NCBI GenBank assembly: GCA_946699065.1
Contig: CAMPDV010002443.1
Span: forward strand, 1 to 64,000
Length of the DNA: 64,000 bases
Source: Loxodes magnus
Lineage: Eukaryota > Ciliophora > Karyorelictea > Loxodida > Loxodidae
Direction: 5' to 3'
In this document: positions 14,618 to 17,311 of the stretch, one piece after another
Layout of the letters: each line of letters opens with the position of its first letter
How positions within the stretch are numbered: position 1 is the stretch's first letter
Notes under the pieces: generated by a model
The model's database searches: none
What the model was told of the DNA's origin: nothing
The model's input: only the letters and a program-made list of their open reading frames with translations
Program-made: the position numbers and the translations under genes

Positions 14618-17311
14618 ATGGATATATAACAGTGTCCTAACTGTAGAAATGCTTTCGATTAAGGTTAGTTTTAAGCCAAGCAACTTCCTTGCAACTGCGT
14701 TTAATGTTTCAACTGTCTAGGTACCATATATCAACTTACGGGAATGGTTTATTGTAGGAATCACCATCAAAGCTTTATTATAAGTCCTTAGGATCTACAA
14801 AACTACATGGTACAATAACCAATATAGCTTTAGTTACCTCAGCGCCATCAAACATTGAATTAATTATGGTTAAATCAATAACTCGATTGGTTATAGGAAT
14901 AATAGAATTAGAAATAAGAGCAGCTATAGTCCATAAGGAATACTATCAATGGTATTAGTTAGTAGTGGAATAATATCTGCTAGTAAGTAATTAAATGAAT
15001 ATTCAAGATCTTGATAGAATAATAAACTTAAAGAGTGAATAAGATTAAGAATTTATTGAATCGATTATCGGAACTCAGTATTTAATAATAATAGTAATAG
15101 CGCTAGCATATCCACCAGTAGGCAAATCAGTATTAGCTATAAGAATAATAGTAGTAATTTACGGATATCTTAGGAGAAATCAATGAGATGAATTAAGAAT
15201 AGAATATAAATTTAAGTGATTAAGGTTTGCGATATAATATTCAGTATTATCTCTTAAATGTCTTCAATTTTCTTAGAGATCATTCATAGGGTTAGATATT
15301 AACTTATTAAAAAGCTTGCTAGTTAATAGAATCTTATTTCAGCCAATAAAATGTAATAAGTGGTATATGTCAAGATCAATAATAATAATAGTAGTTTCAA
15401 TAAAAACAATTATAGGATCTTCAATAATAAGAAATATAACAAAATCAATAATTATAATACTTATATTAAGACTAAGCCTCCCTAAGACACTAAAATTAAG
15501 ACAAATAATAAGTTTAAGAGTAAGTAATGTAAAAAGACTAATCTCAGTTTAAAATATACCAAGAAGTTTCAAATTCTGCTTTAAGTAAGGATTAGCAGTT
15601 ACTTTAACATATTATTGAACTTTAGTTAGAGTAATAGAACTTATAAGTTCAATAGCTTTAAGAGCAGCCAAACTTGATAAAATAAGCCTTAGTGAATTTC
15701 AATACCTTAACGTTCGAATAGTTAATTCAAATCTTAGACCAACTAATACAATAACAAAGTATCGATATTTAATTTTTGAAGTAATCTCCTTTAAATCACT
15801 CAAGCTTAACCCTTTAGACCTCAGTCTTATTATAGTTATCTAGGGTATCTAACTTATAACTGGCTGATAAATTAAATTAGGTGTTAGAGTTATCTGGAAC
15901 ATCATAGGAAGTATCGTAGGTATCATCGAATGTGATAACGATACTTAACTACCTGAATGTTAAGTTTGCATCATAATAAAATTTCTCCGACATGAGATTA
16001 GTGCAAGCAGATCTATCGGACATGACATTTACTGAATGTGATTTCTCTAATTCAAGTTTCCATCAATGTAATTTAAGGAATACTAAGTTTATCGGTTGTG
16101 TATTGAGTAATGCTGATCTATCCGATATAGCAACTGAGTATCCTCATAAACTTAGAGGTCATTCCTACGGCATCAGCTCAATAGCTATCTCTCCTGACAA
16201 TCAATATATCATCACTGGTTCAGATGATAAAAAAATTAAGATCTGAGATTATTAAACATCTGCCTTAATCAATACTTTATCCGGACATACTCATTATGTT
16301 TTATCGGTAGTAATCTCCAATGACTCTAGATATATCATATCAGCATCTGGTGACAGAACCATAAAGATTTGGAATTTCCTTGATGGTACTCTCCTGAGAA
16401 CTTTAGAGGGACATACTGGTCCTATTAACTCGATAGTAATCTCCTCTGACTCTAGATATATAGTATCAGCATCATCTGACAAAACCATAAAGATCTGGAA
16501 TTTCCCTGATGGTACTCTCCTGAGAACTTTAAAGGGACATACTGATTCTATTTCTTCGGTAGTAATCTCCTATGACTCTAGATATATCATATCAGCCTCT
16601 ACTGACAAAACCATAAAGATCTGAAATTTCCCTGATGGTATTCTCCTGAGAACTTTATCCGGACATACTGATCGTATTACCTCGGTAGTAATCTCCAATG
16701 ACTCTAGATATATCATATCAGCCTCTACTGACAAAACCATAAAGATCTGAAATTTCCCTGATGGTACTCTCCTGAGAACTTTAGAGGGACATACTTCTGA
16801 TATTACCTCGGTAGTAATCTCCTATGACTCTAGATATATCATATCAGCCTCTACTGACAAAACCATAAAGATCTGAAATTTCCCTGATGGTACTCTCCTG
16901 AGAACTTTAAAGGGACATACTGATTCTATTTCTTCGGTAGTAATCTCCTATGACTCTAGATATATAATATCAGCATCTTATGACACAACCATAAAGATAT
17001 GGTCTTTTTCAGCTGGTTAGTGTGTATTAACTTTGAGTGATCACGAATATCCAATATGGTCGTTGGCATTATCAAAGGATTCAAGATGGATTTATTCTGG
17101 GGATGAATATGGCTACTTGAGAAGATGGAATTTATAGAGGTTGTTAAGTGTTGATGAATCTGTAGGATAGGTAGGTGTCAATTTAATTAATTTAATAATA
17201 AAGTAGTTGGATTGGAATAGTGTATATGCTCCCTATGGAATGAGATTGAGTGATTGTGAAGCAAGCAACATATAGATGAGTGAGTAGGACAGGAATAGAA
17301 TTATGAGTTGA
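14618..17311 (+). CDS. RING-like / Gln-rich / pentapeptide / 8-blade WD40 protein
   Basis: One uninterrupted frame of 897 codons with TAA/TAG as Gln and internal TGA as Trp. Residues 1-50 form a RING-like zinc finger (CPNC at 6-9, then C25, C27, C30, C33, C46, H49/H50). Residues about 60-450 are very Gln-rich and probably coiled coil. The pentapeptide repeat (ADLSDMTFTECDFSNSSF) starts at residue 459. From about 512 eight WD40 blades of about 42 residues follow, most ending TIKIWNFPDGTLLRTL, then a tail to about 897. Trp in the KIW motif is TGG in some blades and TGA in others. The stop is set at the TGA at 17,309 (IMS-TGA) because the inverted homologue diverges right after it. The order of a RING, a coil and WD40 resembles TRAF7 E3 ligases. 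Ligase activity is inferred. Confidence 0.93.
16276..17013 (+). repeat. 126-bp tandem repeats encoding near-identical WD40 blades
   Basis: In-frame tandem copies of a 126-bp unit that carries GACTCTAGATATAT, ATAAAGATCTGAAATTTCCC and CCTGAGAACTTTA. Differences are concentrated at the codons after GHT, before DSRY, between SAS and D, and before TIKIW. Confidence 0.95.

Follow-up and report, generated by a model that had tools for sequence, protein, structure and literature searches.

A diversified RING-like/WD40 gene family of Loxodes magnus as a candidate intracellular recognition repertoire

The WD40 unit of fungal HNWD proteins, which set off cell death when they recognise non-self, is 42 residues long, and the known RING - coiled coil - propeller E3 ligases include TRIM-NHL proteins such as TRIM32, as well as COP1, RFWD3 and TRAF7. 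In the HNWD/NWD genes of Podospora anserina (het-d, het-e, het-r), the WD40 units are described as homogenised within and between genes, with new combinations produced by exchange (PMC1805685, PMC2873952), and four codons of the unit, 7, 9, 25 and 27 of Paoletti 2007, are reported to be under selection. Highly-Repetitive WD40 proteins, with high internal identity and diversity at hotspot sites, have been surveyed in prokaryotes, fungi and protists (Hu 2017, PMC5587647), and a remark in that survey on their hotspot variation is the closest earlier statement found (PMC5587647). The interaction hotspots of the WD40 top face have been named R1-2, R1 and D-1 (PMC3419727). The ciliate Loxodes magnus, for which a macronuclear assembly of 706 Mbp with rDNA in tandem arrays is described, uses translation table 27, where UGA is either stop or W (PMC11441545). 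Among open-licence papers, preprints not included, the matches listed contained no such WD40 family in ciliates, and we found no work joining Loxodes and WD40 and none on ciliate allorecognition with diversifying selection.

In this study, we analysed a window of 64,000 nucleotides (contig CAMPDV010002443.1, positions 1 to 64,000) of L. magnus. A first-pass annotation of this window had proposed that the WD40 blades of its two intact genes combine a homogenised framework with hypervariable exposed positions, as in fungal HNWD genes.

Genes, propeller and N-terminal part

Gene A (14618..17311, + strand) is one frame of 897 codons, from ATG to TGA, unbroken under code 27. Gene B (42850..45420, +), also one unbroken frame (856 codons), is a full-length relative, and gene C (27756..29592, -) is a decayed relative with about 80% DNA identity, a broken frame and diverged blades. 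The segment 16276-17013, to which the proposal referred, lies inside the single open frame of gene A (code 27: TAA/TAG = Q, TGA = W). The W at position 30 of internal blades is encoded by TGA in 111 of 200 cases and by TGG in 89; the standard bacterial code and code 6 were ruled out, because TGA would break the blades at this conserved W.

The N-terminus of the protein carries a RING-spaced cysteine motif, after which come, in order, a Q-rich region, pentapeptide repeats and the WD40 propeller. The propeller of gene A (16157..17131, +) has eight blades, with the first at 16157, the homogenised ones at 16283-16912, the penultimate at 16913 and the last at 17039, and that of gene B (44386-45240, +) has seven, one of which carries a 2-residue insertion in the b-c loop. 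The blade repeat is 126 bp, and the PF00400 stretches likewise number eight in gene A and seven in gene B. AlphaFold2 modelled the propeller of gene B (residues ~510-799) at high confidence, and Foldseek matched it to 7-bladed WD40 structures, the best being a designed WD40 (TM 0.97 on target). From these models we are confident in predicting that the repeats fold as a propeller.

The eleven homogenised GHT blades reported at first pass are indeed present in A and B with the variants given (HYVL, GPIN, DSIS, DRIT, SDIT, DSIS; DIVT, DFIL, RPVS, SSIS, SAIY), but the total had been set too low, because first and last blades with frameworks of their own flank the homogenised ones and bring A to eight and B to seven. 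These flanking blades vary in the same loops as the homogenised blades. Ungapped internal blades within one gene differ on average at 4.5 of 6 hypervariable residues and at 7.8 of 108 framework nucleotides; for these internal blades the within-gene identity is at least about 0.7, where Highly-Repetitive WD40 proteins are defined by an internal repeat identity above 0.7. The 69 distinct genes sampled from the genome yielded 482 sorted blade matches. Of these, 387 could be read without gaps as 42 codons and fell into four slots (65 first, 200 internal, 65 penultimate and 57 last blades). Excluded from codon counts were 94 odd matches, which among those listed mostly had the 2-residue b-c loop insertion, the 'WKLQSS' form or a truncated match, and one match from the first-blade list. 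Detected blades per gene range from 5 to 11, partial matches counted, and the b-c loop is two residues longer in 41 of 415 scored blades.

The RING-like motif of gene A (14633..14764, +) reads C-x2-C-x15-C-x-C-x2-C-x2-C-x12-C-x2-H. It fits the RING consensus spacing for eight Cys/His residues and departs from the commonest form at ligand 4, a C, and ligand 8, an H. In all 27 genes aligned, the eight putative ligands are invariant; these 27 are the ones of 37 whole one-frame genes that passed motif filters, the other ten being missed by the filters. The RING profile was not matched by a Pfam scan of gene A's N-terminal part. The RING of TRIM32 was a weak sequence match (E 0.22 and 0.079), outranked by a chance viral spike match in the search giving E 0.079, and the RING-like region was modelled at low confidence (pLDDT 51), the N-terminal part at pLDDT under 50. 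The spacing hints at a RING identity of the cysteine motif, and the N-terminal part is probably a RING E3 module. The cysteine motif is followed by the Q-rich region (14800..15970, limits approximate, +), which is helical in the low-confidence model of gene B, and by the pentapeptide repeat stretch (15980..16132, limits approximate, +; Pfam PF00805, E 5.4e-11). Nearly all of gene B outside the propeller was modelled by AlphaFold2 at low confidence.

No NACHT, HET domain, B-box or TRAF zinc finger came up when residues 1-512 and 835-897 of gene A were scanned piecewise with Pfam. NACHT was also absent from the best 25 of 45 Pfam families for the whole gene A protein, as was a Walker A / P-loop (GxxxxGK[ST]) from its whole sequence. 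Gene A has neither a strongly hydrophobic N-terminus nor a transmembrane-like window (top 19-residue mean hydropathy 1.15), and the RING-like start together with the pentapeptide/WD40 make-up suggests that the protein would be cytosolic.

Diversifying selection at top-face codons and exchange of blades

Per-position entropy in internal blades is 2.1-3.4 bits at positions 4, 5, 7, 13, 23 and 25, 1.5 at position 33, and below 1 at 6, 34, 42, 16 and 19, and 157 distinct combinations of the six hypervariable residues occur in 200 internal blades. dN/dS was counted from pairwise synonymous and non-synonymous differences (code 27, Jukes-Cantor correction), without a tree because recombination forbids one. 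The six hypervariable positions were taken from A and B and tested on the other 67 genes against circularity; positions 3, 24 and 26 were also excluded from the framework. In these 67 genes, the ratio of dN at the six positions to framework dS is 4.74 in internal, 10.15 in penultimate, 4.87 in first and 2.64 in last blades, and framework dN/dS is 0.28, 0.41, 0.52 and 0.19, respectively. A bootstrap over 69 genes placed the internal-blade ratio at 4.5-5.4. Measured against the hypervariable codons' own dS (quotients of dN and dS at these codons in all 69 genes, with the sets adapted for first and last blades), the values are about 4.3, 4.9, 1.9 and 8.0, above 1 in all four slots. The N-terminal 515 columns of the 27 aligned genes have a dN/dS of 0.34, and the C-terminal tail about 1. 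The top-face codons are thus under strong diversifying selection and the framework and N-terminal region under purifying selection, and both the entropy and the dN/dS comparison largely bear out what had been proposed from two genes.

Judging from the spacing around conserved residues, the fungal codons 7, 9, 25 and 27 would correspond to blade positions 5, 7, 23 and 25. At these four positions, dN relative to framework dS in the 67 genes is 5.37 (internal), 11.70 (penultimate), 4.75 (first) and 3.41 (last), and random four-position sets reached their mean pN in 0, 0, 0.29% and 0.14% of 20,000 draws in the same order.

The faces were assigned from strand order in the gene B model and from the published hotspots. 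In the model, the strands of blade 2 comprise residues 6-11, 17-22, 26-31 and 37-42, an order which puts the loops 1-5 and 23-25 at one end and the loops 12-16 and 32-36 at the other. Positions 5, 7 and 23 coincide with the hotspots R1-2, R1 and D-1, as expected if variability lies on one face, but it is not confined there, since the opposite end is variable too, at positions 13 and 33. Position 13 (a-b loop; Y, F, L, S, N) has a ratio of 3.1 in internal and 6.2 in penultimate blades, and position 33 (c-d loop) one of 2.9, in internal blades only; both take fewer residues than the top-face sites and vary more weakly. In first blades, position 42, at the end of strand d, has a high ratio of 7.9.

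Exchange between copies involves both whole blades and short tracts. Among the 27 genes aligned in their N-terminal part, r2 is 0.19 for sites less than 25 bp apart and drops to 0.04 at distances above 100 bp, a decay that 0 of 1000 permutations equalled, and within a blade positions 4-5 and 23-25 are linked and 4 and 23 hardly so (z 1.3). There are thirteen 126-bp internal blades that two or more genes share without a single difference. The nearest neighbours of the 200 internal blades lie in the same slot of another gene for 90.1 (45.7 expected by chance), in another slot of another gene for 98.9 (152.0 expected) and in the same gene for 11.0 (2.2 expected). The excess in the same slot indicates that duplication in register also contributes; whole-gene duplication as the sole source of similarity was ruled out on this distribution. 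Twelve gene pairs, chosen for blade sharing, were compared. L002 and L003 are near-identical but for two replaced blades: they differ at 2 of 1200 nt upstream and at none in six slots, but slot 6 differs at 10 nt and slot 7 at 11. The difference is mainly one blade in L006/L015 (4 of 1200 nt differ upstream) and in L074/L075 (199 of 1200 ungapped places differ upstream), and the remaining pairs either have some blades in common and others not, or fall out of register. Linkage decay and pair comparisons thus back the concerted evolution first suggested by A and B, and the trading of blades and tracts keeps the framework uniform and reassorts the residues of the top face.

Family size and genomic setting

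Two single-site markers, with up to 3 mismatches allowed, gave 176 and 185 matches in the 705,730,643-base genome, that is ~180 copies, counts which may include both haplotypes or alleles and broken copies; a reversed-pattern control gave 0 matches. A DNA search of the genome found at least 44 family matches from the best 40 of 2039 first-look candidates. The gene sample came from 80 loci, which gave 68 distinct genes after removal of repeats, and 69 with gene B. Identical WD40 cores occur at different places (L047/L051 on C234; L056/L060/L079 on C283, C315 and C561), and these represent very recent duplication or, near contig ends, assembly overlap. Motif positions place the pentapeptide, WD40 and C-terminal parts in a single frame in 59 of the 69 genes and show this stretch to be broken in 10. 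The N-terminal start motif is in the same frame in 37 of the 59; in 17 of the remaining 22 the locus begins downstream of the start, L041 and L059 lack the start motif yet match gene A in one frame from residue 1, L076 has its N-terminal start out of frame, and in L074 and L075 the start motif was not found. Most of the sampled copies are therefore intact.

The spacing sample comprised 63 places among 100 marker matches listed, namely those on contigs, up to C576, for which LSU matches were listed as well. Neighbouring pairs were on the same strand in 41 cases and on opposite strands in 7. Same-strand spacings run from 22 to 109 kb, most commonly 27.8-28.4 kb (10 of 41), in a list without mismatched copies, so that long gaps may hide members. 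An LSU marker occurs 628 times in the genome. Among 100 exact matches listed, 45 were on contigs of the spacing sample and 55 on seven others; 35 of these 45 are followed on the same strand, 2.9-3.8 kb downstream, by a listed family marker, and 10 are not. Many family genes thus have an LSU relic upstream of them at a nearly fixed distance.

In the window, rDNA relics lie upstream of gene A (9045..14374, +; 3' part of SSU, 5.8S, an LSU carrying deletions and, as a separate block, a 5' piece of SSU) and of gene B (38103..41591, +; LSU truncated). These relics are scrambled, an SSU 5' piece standing downstream of the LSU; compared with an array copy, about 70 and 178 nt are missing from the LSU near gene A. 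At L082 (C415:30400-37300) and L081 (C316:18000-26500), LSU units of about 6.5-8 kb are repeated in tandem, and Rfam matched no SSU there, but LSU rRNA alone in L082 and just its 3' half in L081; the comparison with functional rDNA is thus limited to two array units that have LSU matches and no SSU match. A frame-broken kinase-WD40 relic (36450-37600, -; Pfam PK_Tyr_Ser-Thr and WD40) recurs on many family contigs in the best 40 of 873 first-look candidates scored, and 29 of these 40 matches stop at query base 689 or 692. It is possible that a kinase-WD40 gene formerly served here as another type of receptor, beside the present family. A direct repeat of 6.7 kb (window 1-6750 and 55906-62643; 97.7% identity, 55.9 kb apart) suggests a higher-order unit of two 28-kb units. 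Rfam also matched tRNAs at 22026-22095 and 22172-22244 (-), neither of which was reported by ARAGORN.

Proposed role in recognition, alternative explanations and related systems

We consider it likely that the ~180-copy RING-like/Q-rich/pentapeptide/WD40 family is a diversified intracellular recognition repertoire that works in the manner of HNWD proteins and evolved independently. In this scheme, the top face of the propeller, usually of seven blades, would be the recognition surface, and each gene would offer a different binding face for many or fast-changing protein ligands. Most likely these would be foreign proteins, from bacterial endosymbionts or parasites, from viruses or from mobile elements, or else polymorphic self; the N-terminal part may mark or sequester what the propeller binds. 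The output module would differ from that of fungal HNWD, with no NACHT switch. It is the weakest link of this reading, with RING spacing present and profile and fold support below significance. The family is a concrete candidate for the recognition of invaders or non-self by a free-living protist. More tentatively, it is possible that a unicellular eukaryote here maintains a combinatorial, fast-reassorting repertoire of ~180 RING-like WD40 receptors, in which arrays grown beside rDNA act as a gene-conversion engine that yields a uniform scaffold and new faces, perhaps also somatically between macronuclear copies. This would amount to an independent ciliate system of intracellular immunity or allorecognition, which uses the same residues as fungal NLRs and a ubiquitin-type output.

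Alternatively, the genes may encode diversified substrate adaptors for the cell's own proteins, that is E3-like paralogues with one endogenous target each and no role in defence or allorecognition. RING + WD40 proteins such as COP1 or TRAF7 serve endogenous substrates and resemble the present architecture, and the foreign character of the ligands is something we infer. However, stable endogenous targets predict conserved faces, as opposed to 157 combinations in 200 blades, and also at odds with such adaptors are the near-identical genes that differ by swapped blades and the near loss of linkage between positions 4 and 23 of one blade. We therefore regard this explanation as rather improbable.

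Neutral hitchhiking of a functionless array family, with mutational hotspots in its blades, is strongly disfavoured. It could accommodate the many copies in arrays adjoining rDNA relics, the broken kinase-WD40 relic on many family contigs, and a codon-usage scan trained on A and B that found no further coding stretch but rDNA and gene C, a scan which also missed the kinase-WD40 relic. The third bases offer evidence on both sides. At codons 4, 5 and 25 of internal blades, bases 1-2 have a mean diversity of 0.57 and base 3 one of 0.045, which is below the 0.13 of framework base 3; taken over all six hypervariable codons, base 3 reaches 0.23 and exceeds the framework value, owing to codons 7, 23 and 13, and in first blades base 3 of codons 4, 7, 23 and 25 is varied as well. 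The sparing of third bases at codons 4, 5 and 25 disfavours a blind mutation hotspot, although over all hypervariable codons this control is mixed. Hitchhiking also fits poorly with the 59 of 69 genes unbroken over the compared part and with the dN/dS of framework (0.28) and N-terminal part (0.34). On intactness, dN/dS and the mixed third-base result, a pseudogene or neutral repeat was rejected, and a pure homogenisation artefact is unlikely, since first and last blades have their own frameworks yet the same variable loops.

Very unlikely, too, is a dedicated mutator or cassette mechanism that writes residues into codons 4, 5, 7, 23 and 25. In internal blades, almost every codon 4 or 5 has the form NNT and almost every codon 25 the form NNA, bases 1-2 being free, as such a mechanism might leave them. 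However, the same would be seen under selection if the ancestral codon was NNT or NNA and synonymous diversity is low, and codon 7 is varied at all three bases; the near-fixed third bases at 4, 5 and 25 probably reflect selection. Surface antigen variation, or a secreted or conjugation signal, has hardly any likelihood, because, although large diversified families in ciliates and parasites are often surface proteins, gene A lacks a transmembrane-like window and a strongly hydrophobic N-terminus and its RING-like start and pentapeptide/WD40 make-up point to the cytosol.

Taken as a recognition repertoire, the family resembles HNWD/NWD in its homogenised units, diversifying selection at four top-face codons, repeat exchange and variable unit number. 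The likeness proposed at first pass holds for the selected positions and the exchange, but not for membership in the HNWD or NLR class, as HET, NACHT and Walker A were not found in the scans of gene A. HNWD/NWD are HET-NACHT-WD proteins in a family of 10, whereas the Loxodes family, in a ciliate, has ~180 copies, many in arrays, and carries a RING-like motif and pentapeptide repeats in place of HET and NACHT. Like RING - coiled coil - propeller E3 ligases, its members have a start with a putative Zn motif, a middle predicted to be helical (low-confidence model) and a C-terminal propeller; unlike them, they have a pentapeptide stretch and homogenised blades, and no B-box or TRAF zinc finger was found in the Pfam scans of gene A. 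The Highly-Repetitive WD40 proteins of Hu 2017 are a survey class, whereas here selection and exchange were measured in one family of ~180 paralogues. These comparisons suggest that fungi and ciliates, with output domains unrelated to each other, arrived separately at a uniform scaffold with swapped blades and selected top-face residues, and ~180 copies, against the 10 members of the fungal family, provide many more natural variants from which the specificity of a propeller face may be learned.
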